DNA of 64,000 nt from Rodentibacter heidelbergensis (GTDB taxonomy: Bacteria; Pseudomonadota; Gammaproteobacteria; Enterobacterales; Pasteurellaceae). The translations under genes were made by a program, and so were the position numbers. The stretch's first letter is position 1. The number at the start of each line of letters is the position of its first letter. Of this stretch, positions 21,812 through 28,335 are shown one piece after another. The stretch covers positions 1 to 64,000 of the forward strand of contig NZ_MLHH01000003.1 in assembly GCF_002000125.1 (NCBI RefSeq). Direction: 5' to 3'. The notes beneath the pieces are model-generated. The model saw nothing but the letters and a program-made list of their open reading frames with translations. It was not told the DNA's origin and ran no database searches.

Positions 21812-22114
21812 ATGCATTTAACATCAAGAGAACAAGAAAAGCTGATGCTTTTTCTTGCCGGTGAGCTTGCAGCAAAACGCAAAGCCCGTGGAGTAAAATT
21901 AAACTATCCGGAATCCATCGCCTACATTGCCAGCCATTTACAAGAAGCGGCTCGTGATGGCATGACGGTCGCAGAAGTGATGGAATATGGCGCAACCCTT
22001 TTAACCATCGATGATGTGATGGAAGGCATCCCTGAAATGGTAGATGAAGTACAAATTGAAGCCACCTTTCCTGACGGCACAAAACTGGTGACAGTACATA
22101 ACCCGATTAGATAA
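21812..22114 (+). CDS. ureA: Urease gamma subunit
   Basis: 100 aa small structural subunit of the nickel enzyme that hydrolyses urea to ammonia and carbamate. [26 protein letters not shown] at the N-terminus and VPEM-type [20 protein letters not shown] at the C-terminus are the family pattern. AGAAAAGAAGG lies before the start. Unusually, it is followed by a 179-base gap with three hairpin repeats before ureB. Confidence 0.97.
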
Positions 22115-22122
22115 CAACAACT

Positions 22123-22239
22123 AATCCCCTCTTTCATAAAGAGAGATTAGGAGAGATAACTGCTCTCCTTCTTTCGTAAAGAGGGGTTATGGGAGATGGC
22201 AGATCCCCCTCTTTCGTAAAGAGGGGTTAGGGGAGATTT
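22123..22239. repeat. Three tandem hairpin repeats between ureA and ureB
   Basis: Three copies (22123-22157, 22162-22197, 22201-22239) of a unit built from CCCCTCTTT, a 2-4 base loop, AAAGAGGGG, then TTAGGGGAGAT; a decayed fourth half-copy follows at 22241-22256. The copies differ by point changes in both arms. The same unit occurs, in the opposite orientation, at 27387-27426 and twice at 58452-58531. Each copy can fold into a 9-10 bp stem in the mRNA. Confidence 0.8.
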
Positions 22240-22293
22240 AGTCCCTCCTTTCAAAAAACATTCAATACAATATTTAAATAAGGATTTAATCAA

Positions 22294-22599
22294 ATGATCC
22301 CAGGTGAATATAAATTAGCAAACGGTGATATTCACGCCAATGTTGGGCGAAAAACCGTGAAAATTGATGTGGTGAATAAAGGCGATCGTCCTATTCAGGT
22401 CGGCTCTCATTATCACTTTTTTGAAACCAATAATGCCCTTGAATTTGACCGCACTTTAGCACGAGGTATGCGTTTAAACGTACCCTCAGGCAATGCGGTG
22501 CGTTTTGAACCCGGTGAGGCGAAAACCGTGGAATTAGTCGCATTTGGCGGAAACAATATAATTTATGGTTTCCATAACAAAATTGACGGCAAATTATAA
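22294..22599 (+). CDS. ureB: Urease beta subunit
   Basis: 101 aa structural subunit. [20 protein letters not shown] at the N-terminus and the conserved [14 protein letters not shown] near 34-47, [17 protein letters not shown] near 71-87. AAGGA lies about 12 bases before the ATG. 14 bases before ureC. Confidence 0.97.
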
Positions 22600-22613
22600 A
22601 GGAGTAACCAACA

Positions 22614-24332
22614 ATGGCATTAACCATTCCAAGATCTCAATATGTTGCCACATTCGGCCCTACTGTTGGCGATAGCGTGCGTTTAGGTGATACTGATTTA
22701 TGGGCAACCATTGAAAAAGATTTACTCACGAAAGGTGATGAATGTAAGTTTGGGGGCGGAAAAAGTGTGCGTGACGGCATGGCGCAATCAGGCACCGCAA
22801 CCCGTGATGATCCTAATGTATTAGATTTTGTTATTACTAATGTGATGATTATTGATGCCAAACTTGGCATTATCAAAGCAGATATCGGTATTCGTGACGG
22901 ACGTATTGTGGGAATTGGTCAGGCGGGTAACCCTGATACAATGGATGGCGTTACCCCAAATATGATCATCGGTGTGAGTACTGAAGTGCATAATGGCGCT
23001 AATTTAATCGCTACCGCAGGCGGAATTGATACACATATCCATTTTATCTGCCCACAGCAAGCCCAACACGCCCTTGAAAATGGCACGACCACTTTGATTG
23101 GCGGCGGAACAGGCCCAGCAGATGGTACGCACGCTACCACCTGTACACCGGGTGCATGGAATTTACAACGCATGTTCCAAGCCGCAGAGGCATTACCGGT
23201 CAATGTGGGCTTTTTTGGTAAAGGTAACTGCTCCACCCTTGAACCCTTAAGAGAACAAATTCGTGCCGGTGCACTGGGTTTAAAAATTCATGAAGACTGG
23301 GGAGCCACACCGGCGGTGATTGATGCCGCATTAAAGGTTGCCGATGAAATGGATGTGCAAGTGGCAATCCATACAGACACCCTCAACGAAAGTGGTTTCT
23401 TAGAAGATACCATGAAAGCCATAAACGGACGTGTTATCCATACCTTCCATACAGAAGGCGCAGGCGGTGGACACGCCCCTGATATTATTAAAGCCGCGAT
23501 GTATTTCAATGTCCTTCCGGCCTCGACCAATCCAACCCGTCCGTTTACCGTCAACACCATTGACGAACATTTGGATATGTTGATGGTTTGCCACCATCTA
23601 GATAAACGTGTACCGGAAGATGTTGCCTTTGCCGACAGCCGTATCCGTCCTGAAACCATTGCCGCAGAAGATATTTTGCATGATATCGGTGTGTTTTCCA
23701 TTATGAGTTCCGACTCGCAAGCCATGGGGCGTATTGGTGAAGTCGTGACTCGCACTTGGCAAACGGCAGATAAAATGAAAGCACAACGGGGGGAATTAGG
23801 CAGCGAGGGCAATGATAACTTTCGCATAAAACGCTATATCGCCAAATATACGATCAACCCGGCTATTGCTCATGGTATCGCGGATCATGTTGGTTCATTA
23901 GAAGTGGGTAAAATTGCCGATATCGTGTTATGGAAACCCATGTTTTTTGGTGTGAAACCTGAAACCGTCATCAAAAAAGGCGTGATCAGTTATGCCAAAA
24001 TGGGCGACCCAAATGCCTCGATTCCAACGCCACAACCGGTATTCTATCGCCCAATGTTCGGTAACCAAGGTAAAGCGACTGCTAAAACCGCTGTTGTTTT
24101 TATCTCTGAGGCCGCTAAACAAGCAGATATTCAAAGGCAATATGGCTTAGAAAAAGAGCTAATTACGGTGAAAGGTTGTCGTAATATTGGCAAAAAAGAT
24201 TTGGTTCATAATGATGCCACCCCTGAAATCACTGTTGATCCCGAACGTTACGAAGTACGGGTAAATGGTGAACTTATCACCTGTGAACCGGCAGAAAAAG
24301 TGCCCTTGGCGCAGCGATATTTTATGTTCTAA
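22614..24332 (+). CDS. ureC: Urease alpha subunit (catalytic)
   Basis: 572 aa, carries the dinuclear nickel site. All key residues are present: H141 and H143 (DTHIHF), carbamylated K224 and H226 (GLKIHEDWG), H253 (AIHTDTLN), H279 ([14 protein letters not shown]), the general-acid His in VCHHLDK near 327, and D367 (SSDSQAMGR). Intact and full length, so the urease should be functional. AAAGGAG in front of the ATG. Followed by a hairpin and then dinD instead of ureE. Confidence 0.98.
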
Positions 24333-24369
24333 CACCACCTCAGCGCCAAAAGGGCTGAAACGGTCGGTA

Positions 24370-24395
24370 ACCAAGGGTAACTTGTTACCCTTGGT
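24370..24395 (+). terminator. Strong hairpin after ureC, possible attenuator
   Basis: ACCAAGGGTAAC (24370-24381) and GTTACCCTTGGT (24384-24395) are exact complements separated by TT; realistically an 11-bp stem with a CTTG loop. It is followed by AGAAAGTTTG, not a U-run, so it may slow or partly end transcription, or protect the ureABC message 3' end. It marks the upstream side of the dinD insertion. Confidence 0.5.
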
Positions 24396-24498
24396 AGAAA
24401 GTTTGTGACCTCACTCGAGAAAACAAAAGTTTTTTCTGATTTTGAATATCACTTTTTATTACGATGTTGCATTGTTTTACATTTAAAGAGGAATAAAC

Positions 24499-25365
24499 AT
24501 GGATCCGCAATTACAGTTATTACAATCAACATTAGAAAGTCTTGTACAACGGTTAGATCAACATATCGAGTTTTGGTATGCCAGAGATTTACAGCCCTAC
24601 CTCGGATACACTCGTTGGGAAAATTTTAAAGTGGCAATTCATCGAGCCATAGATTCTTGCGAAGCCAGTGGCTATAAGGCTTCAGATCATTTTCGTGGCG
24701 TCACGAAAATGATCGATATTGGCAAAGGTGGGCAGAGAAAAGTTGAAGATTTTATGCTTACACGTTATGCCTGCTATTTAATTGCTCAAAATGGTGATCC
24801 AAGAAAACCTGAAATTGCTTTTGCACAAAGCTATTTTGCGGTGCAAACCAGAAAACAGGAATTGATTGAAGAGAGAATGCAGCTGTATGCTCGTTTAGAG
24901 GCCCGTGAACGATTAAGAGAATCCGAAAAAATCCTTTCACAAATTCTTTATGAACGAGGTGTTGATGATGCCGGATTTGGTCGTATTCGTTCAAAAGGCG
25001 ATTATGCCCTTTTTGGCGGATTTTCCACTCAAGCAATGAAAGAAAAATATGAAATGCCGAAAGGCAGGGCATTAGCCGATTTCTTACCAACACTCACCAT
25101 TGCCGCCAAGCAACTTGCGACAGAGATGACAAATCACAATACGCAGCAAGCTAATTTACAAGGTGAAAATGAGATTACGATTGAACATGTACAAAACAAT
25201 AAAACCATTCGGGAAATGCTTGGACAGCGAGGTATAAAACCTGAAGCGTTACCTGCTGAACCTGATTTACAAAAACTAGAGCGAAAAGTAAAACGAACAG
25301 AAAAACAATTAGCCGAAAAAGTTAAAACATTACCTAAAATAGAAGACAGAAATGAAAATCCTTAA
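24499..25365 (+). CDS. dinD: DinD-family protein (DNA damage-inducible D)
   Basis: 288 aa, closely resembling E. coli DinD, which inhibits RecA-mediated strand exchange. Family stretches: KMIDIGKGGQRKVEDFMLTR near 75-94, RYACYLIAQNGDPRKPEIAF near 94-113, IRSKGDYALFGG near 165-176, and the closing MLGQRGIKPEALPAEPDL, then a charged helix KLERKVKRTEKQLAEKVK. The N-terminal YARDLQPYLGYTRWENFKVAI resembles the BRO-N fold. AAAGAGG precedes the ATG. No LexA box is visible upstream, so it may follow urease transcription or a weak local promoter. Its last codons and stop lie over the ureE start in another frame (14-base overlap). It has no known urease role. Confidence 0.88.
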   Translation: MDPQLQLLQSTLESLVQRLDQHIEFWYARDLQPYLGYTRWENFKVAIHRAIDSCEASGYKASDHFRGVTKMIDIGKGGQRKVEDFMLTRYACYLIAQNGDPRKPEIAFAQSYFAVQTRKQELIEERMQLYARLEARERLRESEKILSQILYERGVDDAGFGRIRSKGDYALFGGFSTQAMKEKYEMPKGRALADFLPTLTIAAKQLATEMTNHNTQQANLQGENEITIEHVQNNKTIREMLGQRGIKPEALPAEPDLQKLERKVKRTEKQLAEKVKTLPKIEDRNENP

Positions 25366-25909
25366 CCCAATCCTCCCTATCATGGAAAATATTTTGGGAA
25401 ATTTAACCGCACTTCGTGAGGCGGGTAAAATAACCCATCAAAAAATAGATTATGTTTCGCTGCAATGGTACGAAAGCGAACGCAATATTCTACGAAAAAC
25501 CACCCACAGTGGGCGTGAGGTGGCATTTCGTTTGCTCAAAGAAGGACAACGTTTAAAACATGATGATGTGGTGTTTATCAGCGATGAATTGGTGATCGCC
25601 ATTGAAATTTTGCCAAGCGAAGTGATTGTGCTTTCACCAAAAACCCTACCGGAAATGGCTCGAGCCTGTTATGAAATCGGCAACAAACATTCACCGCTTT
25701 TTTTAGATGGCGATGAGGTCACACTGCCTTATGACAAACCAATGTTCGAATGGTTACAAGCCGCCGGTTTTCATCCGCAAAAAGCTGAGCGCCGTTTAAG
25801 CCAAGCGTTGCGAGCCAATTCCGCACAAGGACATTCACACAGCCATTCACATAGTCATGATCATCACGGCTATCATCACCATGGAGATGGGAATTGGCAC
25901 CAACATTAA
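25352..25909 (+). CDS. ureE: Urease accessory protein UreE (nickel chaperone)
   Basis: 185 aa metallochaperone handing Ni(II) to the UreDFG-apourease complex. The N-terminal domain begins MKILNPILPIMENILG, matching H. influenzae UreE as recalled, which supports the start at 25352. The C-terminus is a nickel-binding His tail (HSHSHSHSHDHHGYHHHGDG and HQH). The start lies inside the end of dinD and has only a weak ribosome site (GAAG), so translation is probably coupled to dinD. The end overlaps ureF by 16 bases. Confidence 0.95.
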   Translation: MKILNPILPIMENILGNLTALREAGKITHQKIDYVSLQWYESERNILRKTTHSGREVAFRLLKEGQRLKHDDVVFISDELVIAIEILPSEVIVLSPKTLPEMARACYEIGNKHSPLFLDGDEVTLPYDKPMFEWLQAAGFHPQKAERRLSQALRANSAQGHSHSHSHSHDHHGYHHHGDGNWHQH

Positions 25910-26601
25910 ACCGCTCTTTAGCTGATTTAGGCGCTCTGCTTCACTTGGTCGATCCCACTTTGCCCATTGGCGGATTTAATCATTCCAACGGTTTGGAAAC
26001 TTTCGTCCAACAAGGCATTGTCGAAAGTAAAATAACCCTTGAAGACTATGTGCAAACCCAGCTGTTACAAAACTGGATCTACAATGATGGGGCCTATCTT
26101 TCCCTTGCTTTTGATGCGATGGAAAATCACGATTTCGAGCGTTTATGCGAATTGGATTGGACGCTTTCCGCCACCAAAATAGCGCGTGAAAGTCGCGAAG
26201 GGAGCTTTAAATTGGGCGTGCGGTTGCTGAAAATTTTCATTCGCTATGAAAACCACCCGATGCTCACCACTTATCAGCAAGCCATCACTGAAAAACGAGT
26301 TCAAGGCTACTTCCCCATCGTATTTGCTATGGTCGCTCAAGCTATGGGGCTAAGCAAGGCCGATACACTCTATGCTTTTTATTACAATTCGGCGGTGGGA
26401 GCGATCACCAATGGCGTAAAACTCATCCCATTAAGCCAAATGGATGGACAGGATATTTTATTCCGCTTACGTCAGCCATTACAAAAAGCAGTAGCATTAA
26501 GCCTATCGCCTGATTCCGATTGGCTTGGGGCAGCAACACTTGCCAATGATATTCGGGCTATGCAACACGAACAGCTTTATACAAGGCTTTATATGTCCTA
26601 A
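25894..26601 (+). CDS. ureF: Urease accessory protein UreF
   Basis: 235 aa helical chaperone forming the UreDFG activation complex. Start is a TTG at 25894: GGAG lies 7 bases upstream and no ATG is available in this frame before LVDPTLPIGGFNHSNGLE (about 18-35), the family signature. Other landmarks: SREGSFKLGVRLLKIF near 92-107 and LANDIRAMQHEQLYTRLYMS at the end. Overlaps the ureE His-tail by 16 bases. Confidence 0.93.
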   Translation: MAPTLNRSLADLGALLHLVDPTLPIGGFNHSNGLETFVQQGIVESKITLEDYVQTQLLQNWIYNDGAYLSLAFDAMENHDFERLCELDWTLSATKIARESREGSFKLGVRLLKIFIRYENHPMLTTYQQAITEKRVQGYFPIVFAMVAQAMGLSKADTLYAFYYNSAVGAITNGVKLIPLSQMDGQDILFRLRQPLQKAVALSLSPDSDWLGAATLANDIRAMQHEQLYTRLYMS

Positions 26602-26746
26602 AACTATCTTCTTGGGAGGAGATAAACGGAAACTGCATTAGGCAATTTTCGTCATAAAGGGAAAGTGCGGTCATTTTTCAAAAAGATTTTGTTATCCCCT
26701 CTTCCTGTCAATGGGAGTGAAAAACGATTAGAAAAAGGAAAGAACA

Positions 26747-27382
26747 ATGCGTAACTATATTAAAATCGGTGTGGCCGGCCCTGTTGGGGCAGGTAAAACA
26801 GCGTTAATTGAAAAACTTACTCGTGAAATCGCCAGCAAATACAGTGTGGCAGTCATCACCAATGATATTTACACGCAAGAAGATGCAGAATTTTTAACAA
26901 AAAATAGCCTGCTCCCACCCGAGCGGATTATGGGGGTGGAAACGGGCGGTTGTCCACACACCGCCATTCGTGAAGATGCCTCAATGAACTTGGAGGCTGT
27001 CGATGAAATGGTGGCGCGTTTTCCTGATGTGGAAATCGTTTTTATCGAATCGGGCGGCGATAATCTCTCCGCCACCTTCAGTCCGGATTTAGCGGATGTC
27101 ACCATTTTCGTGATTGATGTGGCGCAAGGCGAAAAAATTCCACGCAAAGGCGGCCCGGGGATTACTCGTTCAGATTTATTGGTGATTAATAAAACCGACC
27201 TAGCTCCATTTGTAGGGGCCGATTTAAGCGTGATGGAACGCGATGCCCGCCGTATGCGCAATGGTCAGCCTTTCATTTTTACTAACCTTATGAAAAAAGA
27301 AAATTTAGAGGGCGTGATCGGTTGGATTGAGAAATATGCCTTACTAAAAAACATAGAAGAACCAAAAGCATTAGTGAGATAA
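26747..27382 (+). CDS. ureG: Urease accessory GTPase UreG
   Basis: 211 aa SIMIBI GTPase driving nickel insertion. P-loop GPVGAGKT (11-18), the invariant metal-binding CPH in [16 protein letters not shown] near 68-83, ESGGDNL near 101, and [13 protein letters not shown] near 152. RBS AAAGGAAAGAAC. A 145-base gap with a USS core separates it from ureF. Confidence 0.97.
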
Positions 27383-27386
27383 AAAA

Positions 27387-27426
27387 CAAATCTCCTCTTT
27401 AGCAAAGAGGGGCAAAGGGAGATTTG
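27387..27426. repeat. Hairpin repeat copy between ureG and ureD
   Basis: CAAATCTCC (27387-27395) and GGAGATTTG (27418-27426) flank an inner CTCTTT-AAAGAG hairpin. Same family as the three copies between ureA and ureB and the two at 58452-58531. It starts 5 bases after the ureG stop. Confidence 0.75.
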
Positions 27427-27513
27427 GCAGAGGAAAATCGACCTCATAAGTCATTTAATATTGAAATTAAATTTCCACCTCTCCCTTTTGAAAAAGATCC
27501 TAAGACCTAAACA

Positions 27514-28335
27514 ATGAACAGTAAACTCAGACTTTCCACCAAACTTTCCCCAACAGGCAAAACCCAACTTGCCGACTATTTTGCTACCCCGCCTTTTAAA
27601 GTGATGGTGTTGCCTCATTATTCGGGCATTTGGTCGGAAGGATTAAATGCCATGCAAATGTCCTCCTCGCCCGGTGTACTGGCAGGCGATCGCTTGGATA
27701 TTCAAATTTCACTGGCAAAATCCACCGCACTTTCACTGCATACACAGGCTTTCACCCGTGTGCAAGCGATGAATGAAAATGAAAGTGCCGAACAGAGCAC
27801 ACAAATTCATTTGGCAGAAGGAAGCCGTTTATTCTATTTGCCACATCCCTTAGTGCTACATAAAGACGCCGCATTCAAACAGAAAACCCTCATTGAAATG
27901 CAGCCAAACAGCGAGTTAATTTACGGTGAGATTGTTGCCATTGGGCGAGTCTTAAATGATGAACGCTTTGCTTTCCGCCAATTTTCATCTCATTTGAATA
28001 TTTATGGCTTGCAACATGAGGGCAAAAAATATCCCCTTTTGTCAGATTGTATTCAATGGTACCCCACAACAATGAACCTTACCGCATTGAGCCAAATGGA
28101 AAACTATTCCCATCAGGGATCATTAATCTATCTAAATCGAGGGAAAAGTGCGGTCGAATTTAAAGGGATTTTACAGCGCATTCACATCCATATTGCAGAG
28201 GAAAAAACTATGCTGGTTGGGGCTTCCCTTTTAAATTGCGATGGGATTATCGTGCGGGTTTTGGGACACCGTGCCGAACCTATTCAAAATCTGTTTCATC
28301 AGCTTGCCCGCTATTTCCAAGAGGAAAATCAATAA
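27514..28335 (+). CDS. ureD: Urease accessory protein UreD (UreH)
   Basis: 273 aa beta-rich scaffold of the UreDFG complex that binds apourease. Landmarks: MSSSPGVLAGDRLDIQI near 50-66, LHTQAFTRVQAM near 75-86, and LPHPLVLHKDAAF near 110-122. In Haemophilus nomenclature often called ureH. Last gene of the urease operon; a USS core at 28146 lies near its end, and cdd follows in the opposite direction after 26 bases with no clear terminator. Confidence 0.94.
   Translation: MNSKLRLSTKLSPTGKTQLADYFATPPFKVMVLPHYSGIWSEGLNAMQMSSSPGVLAGDRLDIQISLAKSTALSLHTQAFTRVQAMNENESAEQSTQIHLAEGSRLFYLPHPLVLHKDAAFKQKTLIEMQPNSELIYGEIVAIGRVLNDERFAFRQFSSHLNIYGLQHEGKKYPLLSDCIQWYPTTMNLTALSQMENYSHQGSLIYLNRGKSAVEFKGILQRIHIHIAEEKTMLVGASLLNCDGIIVRVLGHRAEPIQNLFHQLARYFQEENQ

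Follow-up and report, generated by a model that had tools for sequence, protein, structure and literature searches.

The urease locus of Rodentibacter heidelbergensis lies on the plus strand of the window (the whole stretch of 64,000 nucleotides that was analysed) in the order urea transporter gene, ureA, ureB, ureC, dinD, ureE, ureF, ureG, and ureD, as judged from the open reading frame (ORF) list and family matches. The structural genes ureA (21812 to 22114), ureB (22294 to 22599), and ureC (22614 to 24332) form a block (21812 to 24332), assigned by ORF list and family comparison, and are followed by an interval of 1,019 bp (24333 to 25351) before ureE (25352 to 25909), which encodes the nickel chaperone. 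The interval carries an intact dinD of 288 codons (24499 to 25365) behind the ribosome site AGAGGA (24487 to 24492; anti-SD energy, -6.0 kcal/mol), and the end of dinD overlaps the start of ureE by 14 nt (25352 to 25365). The remaining accessory genes ureF (25894 to 26601, with a TTG start in the ORF list), ureG (26747 to 27382), and ureD (27514 to 28335) extend the accessory region from 25894 to 28335, and a second overlap, of 16 nt, joins ureE and ureF. Apart from dinD, the interval between ureC and ureE contains only short or antisense frames in the ORF list, and no other same-strand ORF of at least 75 amino acids is listed there. The gene order ureC-dinD-ureE given in a preliminary description of this DNA was thus confirmed, the dinD product also passing its family model.

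The dinD product matched the NCBIfam model NF008573 (DNA damage-inducible protein D, with a Bro-N domain) at 356.1 bits against a cutoff of 242, over residues 8 to 277 of 288, and so resembles known DinD over nearly its full length. Besides, it matched the PADLOC model PDC-S13 (PDLC04919; E value, 6.9e-114), which is a candidate anti-phage model only, and no relative of DinD was found among solved structures at an E value of 1. Unlike known DinD, the protein is encoded in a urease operon within a window devoid of exact LexA boxes and ends in a new C-terminal tail.

We compared the junction across 140 Pasteurellaceae genomes, one per species, of which 52 carry ureE and 21 some DinD relative. 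The ure regions of 51 genomes and of the window were compared; ureC and ureE are both present in 51 of the 52, the exception being Pasteurellaceae bacterium Pebbles2 (G089), with no ureC on its 19-kb region. When junctions longer than 150 bp were scanned for ATG-start ORFs of at least 80 amino acids, 27 of the 51 genomes, representing 7 of 14 genera, had one between ureC and ureE. The other junctions were almost devoid of cargo (ureA-ureB, 0/49; ureB-ureC, 0/50; ureE-ureF, 0/52; ureF-ureG, 2/51; ureG-ureD, 1/48), with one genus each at ureF-ureG and ureG-ureD, and the difference between ureC-ureE and the others gave Fisher P values of 5e-11 to 2.5e-8, uncorrected for kinship. The genes in this slot, as we call the ureC-ureE junction, belong to eight unrelated families: glutathione S-transferase (GST)-like genes (18), dinD (6), a Pyridox_ox_2 protein (3), and, in single genomes, a PhzF-like protein, a small multidrug transporter, a DUF3861 protein, a TPR protein that weakly matches Clp protease, and a protein lacking a Pfam family. 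Of 33 slot ORFs, two of which are the halves of one broken dinD, 32 run in the direction of the operon, and only the small multidrug transporter gene lies on the opposite strand. The other 24 genomes have no slot ORF of 80 amino acids or more, and three of these keep dinD remnants. The new arrangement that the preliminary description had allowed for is therefore not unique to the window, since nearly the same dinD joint occurs in Actinobacillus and other genes occupy the slot in many species.

As to the sparse cargo at ureF-ureG, another genome of the window's genus (G117, locus L103) has a PIN-domain protein of 141 amino acids (Pfam) preceded by an 80-amino-acid gene, a toxin-antitoxin-like pair lodged in the operon, and R. 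trehalosifermentans (G130, locus L108), with dinD in its ureC-ureE slot, has a membrane-like protein of 166 amino acids without a Pfam family. At the same junction, 10 of the Neisseriaceae loci L162 to L178 encode a protein of about 185 to 210 amino acids, which we take to be HupE/UreJ-like.

The preliminary description pointed to an inverted repeat upstream of dinD, which might be taken as a mark of insertion. The repeat, at 24370 to 24395, is indeed perfect, with 12-nt arms separated by TT, and a repeat of this sequence would not be expected by chance (0 of 100 shuffles with up to three mismatches allowed); it lies 5' of dinD in R. rarus (G123) also, and might be read as a relic of the mobile element by which dinD arrived. 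However, no matching repeat was found on the far side of dinD, the repeat is imperfect in R. ratti (G124) and R. trehalosifermentans, and the interval has no second same-strand ORF of at least 75 amino acids. Between 24200 and 25600 there are two inverted repeats, one upstream of and one within dinD, and the gene is flanked neither by matching repeats of the transposon or integron cassette type nor by a pair of direct repeats. Since the repeat inside the dinD coding sequence is also perfect (13 nt; 24685 to 24714), such repeats are not rare in the window. A dispersed element was considered and rejected, because the 2.03-Mb genome holds a single further copy of the upstream repeat, with three mismatches. 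The 70 nt 3' of ureC form a strong fold (-31.2 kcal/mol; z, -5.1), and a strong hairpin (z < -2) follows ureC in 25 of 51 genomes, with differing sequences and with empty slots included. Hairpins of this strength also follow ureA (25/49), ureG (30/50), and ureF (15/52), although none follows ureB (0/50). The relatives thus already count against the repeat as the trace of a mobile element, a reading that is largely refuted and that we regard as extremely improbable. The repeat fits a post-ureC RNA hairpin, which was not called terminator-like and has counterparts in the same place in some relatives with empty slots.

The most frequent tenant raises another possibility, namely, that selection has paired the slot genes with urease, as with a GST acting in stress or metal handling, and that they are not random cargo. 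GST-like genes occupy the slot in 18 of the 51 genomes and in four genera, including all nine Actinobacillus genomes searched, and a fifth genus is added by G089, in which a GST-like gene lies directly 5' of ureE; GST so common at this place may be urease linked and not mere cargo. Outside the family, a Snodgrassella (L168) has a distant GST (27% identity) at this junction, and 17 of the Bacteroidota loci L183 to L211 have alike proteins of 206 to 216 amino acids there, with signal-like starts as judged by eye. Against this, the tenants come from eight unrelated families, 24 of 51 genomes do without any ORF of 80 amino acids, and dinD has no evident role with nickel or urea, so that a general partnership of slot genes with urease seems unlikely to us. 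The tenants shared among genomes may go back to few acquisitions. The G089 locus also stands out in its own right, because it has the order GST-ureEFGD without ureABC on its 19-kb region, i.e., accessory genes without nearby structural genes.

In the urease literature searched, which comprised titles and the beginnings of abstracts with most subscription papers outside it, no description of a variable ureC-ureE slot or of dinD there was found. That a gene can lie at this junction is already known from Actinobacillus pleuropneumoniae, for which Bosse and MacInnes reportedly described in 1997 a 615-bp ORFX between ureC and ureE. From its length and the GST-like gene in nine of nine Actinobacillus genomes searched, ORFX is probably the GST-like tenant and not dinD; it is thus like the window in having an extra gene at this junction and unlike it in the gene concerned. 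Chromosomal hotspots exchange genes through homologous recombination in their flanks, and the slot resembles them in its variable content between conserved flanks and in its mosaic identity, but differs in its one-gene scale and in lying within a working operon. In A. pleuropneumoniae JL03, the gene numbering places APJL1648 between ureC and ureE (PMC2175527).

The slot dinD was found in 6 of the 52 ureE genomes: four of Rodentibacter (the window's genome, G000; R. rarus; R. ratti; and R. trehalosifermentans) and two of Actinobacillus (Actinobacillus genomosp. 2, G005; and G007, in which the frame is broken by a stop), both with the order ureC-GST-dinD-ureE. With 6 of 52 genomes and one copy broken, dinD does not behave as a conserved urease accessory gene. 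Fourteen other genomes of the window's genus have ureE, and three relatives, R. mrazii (G120), Rodentibacter genomosp. 2 (G127), and R. pneumotropicus (G122), keep dinD remnants in junctions of 217 to 225 bp, detected by tblastn in the first two and by DNA alignment with these in the third. The junction of G121 ends in GGAAGACAAT before ureE, which is like the dinD joint but not long enough to be counted as a remnant. In the DinD tree, made with 14 DinD loci of a larger set and without the broken G007 copy, the five intact slot DinDs group in a single clade (support, 98/96), and their nearest relatives show 71 to 72% identity (beside hsdR) and 59% identity. Loci L060 and L251 were absent from the synonymous-divergence (dS) set owing to a motif filter; the former is in the DinD tree, and the latter, with an internal stop, was not used.

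The surroundings of dinD differ outside the slot. Among nine non-slot loci read, seven have hsdR, hsdS, or hsdM adjoining dinD, four such proteins at three loci being confirmed by Pfam, and the two most distant loci (26 to 27% identity) have no type I restriction-modification neighbors. By contrast, the window dinD adjoins ureC and ureE, and no hsdM, hsdS, or hsdR lies next to it. In a RecB tree of 27 of 28 genomes (G001 was left out because its recB is split by a stop), a ten-species clade has dinD on early branches (G123, G124, G000, and G130), and the rest of the clade comprises three species with remnants, two with empty slots, and one with another tenant. This spread of dinD over the clade fits one gain followed by several losses or replacements. 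The comparison of junctions across the family thus bore out the view of dinD as an inserted gene; it also found dinD to be old in the operon of relatives and to end there in a different tail, which goes against the preliminary description.

The joint between dinD and ureE indicates how the overlap may have arisen. The distance from the codons for LPK to the ureE ATG is 13 nt in Rodentibacter and 16 nt in Actinobacillus, with the same frame relation. The Actinobacillus dinD stops 7 nt 5' of ureE, and its next in-frame stop is the TTAA inside ureE, the one that Rodentibacter uses. Other DinDs end in LPKEN, LPNK, or LPKGNK, compared with LPKIEDRNENP in the window. The 14-base overlap of the preliminary description holds, although it covers four sense codons (N-E-N-P, with only part of the first) and the stop instead of five codons and a stop. 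Its suggestion that the DinD C terminus was created at the joint is supported, as the native stop is gone in Rodentibacter and the tail is read from ureE. Judging from the alignment and the tails of other DinDs, we infer that loss of the native dinD stop in Rodentibacter gave rise to the overlap; the frame would therefore end at the next stop, already in ureE, with the overlap as a passive product.

An overlap of this kind might also serve termination-reinitiation, in which case dinD translation would govern that of ureE and nickel insertion would depend on dinD. As first described, ureE of the window has a weak ribosome site (-1.0 kcal/mol, compared with -6.0 for dinD). All four Rodentibacter carriers retain the overlap, with a ureE site of -1.0 and a stronger dinD site of -5.6 to -6.0, and the ureE site predicted for the three remnant relatives is stronger (-5.7). 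However, ureE sites are weak family-wide (median, -2.7 kcal/mol; n = 52), those behind empty slots ranging from -7.3 to +1.7 (n = 21); the AAGG of the remnant relatives ends 12 nt before the ureE start, which is poor spacing, and these three relatives may count as one event. Furthermore, ureE is intact in the three relatives with decayed dinD, and the overlap itself can be had passively from stop loss. Local translational coupling of dinD and ureE is thus conceivable but is not required by the relatives, and we consider its functional role in nickel insertion doubtful.

Between ureC and dinD, neither a terminator-like nor a promoter-like site was detected by simple consensus. According to passages of PMC3166929, the ure cluster of Haemophilus influenzae is one transcript by RT-PCR, which makes read-through into dinD likely, and we infer that the urease promoter probably drives transcription of dinD. 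The preliminary description had also raised a coupling of urease expression to a DNA damage protein, one form of which would make dinD an SOS gene placing urease under DNA damage control. Membership in the DinD family speaks for it, and DinD is among the RecA filament regulators listed for E. coli in passages of PMC4457935. On the other hand, an exact-match search for the LexA box CTGT-N8-ACAG found none in the 64-kb window and two directly upstream of lexA in the same genome (genome-wide, this pattern shows no enrichment, with 13 exact matches versus 10 for a reversed control), and by simple consensus dinD has no promoter-like site of its own after ureC. Because the exact box is lacking, ureE outlives dinD in relatives, and weak ureE sites are common, DNA damage control of urease appears unlikely, and dinD as its SOS switch very improbable indeed.

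The dinD copies are maintained under purifying selection, with dN/dS values of 0.05 to 0.17 in six pairs among the four Rodentibacter copies, a constraint looser than that on ureC and ureG (0.01 to 0.03). Thus, dinD would be kept for a function of its own, for which RecA modulation and defense are candidates.

Sequence divergence along the operon points to exchange between species. For the two Actinobacillus carriers (G005 and G007), dS falls from 1.47 in recB to 0.30 in ureC, 0.13 in ureE, and 0.02 in dinD, and DNA identity is 97 to 99% in dinD and ureE, 90 to 99% in ureC windows, 88 to 93% in ureF, and 66 to 72% in the urea transporter gene. The operon of Actinobacillus ureae (G008; L145/L095) is likewise a mosaic: ureA to ureG, GST included, is Haemophilus-like, with 93 to 97% identity to a Haemophilus (G065), and ureD is Actinobacillus-like, with 69% identity to that Haemophilus, 88 to 91% to three congeners, and 77% to a fourth. 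Identity profiles of five genome pairs gave a clean breakpoint at the slot in one, G127/G118, for which identity is 95 to 99% as far as the end of ureC, drops to 73% in the slot, and is 83 to 84% in ureE. The pairs G005/G007 and G120/G127 are mosaics, the remnant of the latter being 99% alike between flanks of 82 to 99%, and no break stood out at the slot in G000/G123 and G120/G125. In all six pairs of the four Rodentibacter copies, dinD has a lower dS than recB and ureC, and in five of the six a lower dS than ureE; as ureB dS is in turn lower than dinD dS in four of six pairs, a low dinD dS alone proves little. Uptake-sequence words, as we presume them to be, show no enrichment in the slot (0.13/kb, compared with 0.70/kb in the window) and are dense in ureB (2.2/kb), the ureF-ureG spacer (2.4/kb), and ureD, so that natural transformation as the route of recombination is a conjecture.

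Taken together, these comparisons make it likely that the ureC-ureE junction is a permissive cargo slot and that dinD is a tenant lodged there once, inherited, exchanged, and lost, being neither a part of urease nor a DNA damage switch for it. In Pasteurellaceae operons, the slot would separate the structural genes (ureABC) from the accessory genes (ureEFGD). Single genes, nearly always operon oriented and presumably of some benefit, may lodge there, be swapped among species through homologous recombination in the conserved ure sequences on either side, and then decay. A dinD, in this family mostly found within type I restriction-modification loci, would have lodged once directly before ureE, giving the joint now seen in Rodentibacter and Actinobacillus; no integrase, donor, or mechanism was identified for this first entry. 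In Rodentibacter, loss of the native stop would then have let the frame run on to the next one, already within ureE, leaving the 14-nt overlap, and dinD would be read from the urease promoter and retained for its own function. Of the preliminary description and the readings tied to it, the inserted gene and the C terminus made at the joint are kept in this explanation, and the repeat as an insertion mark, the damage link, and the uniqueness are not.

The dinD locus is thus a real observation, reinterpreted as one tenant of a shared slot, and the place itself is the point of interest. What was an oddity of one genome becomes a countable pattern, in which a working multigene operon has one favored slot for unrelated genes across half of the genera having the operon. 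More tentatively, and with less than even confidence, the slot might act as an integrase-free cargo port, through which naturally competent Pasteurellaceae would pass single genes to one another with ureC and ureE as the sites of recombination, the position between structural and accessory genes being favored because changes of expression would be tolerated there, and DinD, a possible RecA modulator or defense gene, being one traded trait. The overlap shows how an arrangement readily read as designed translational coupling can stem from plain loss of a stop codon. The pattern also calls for caution in inferring function from operon neighborhood, as dinD and the other tenants are not urease genes by virtue of their place, and it bears on how operons acquire new genes.
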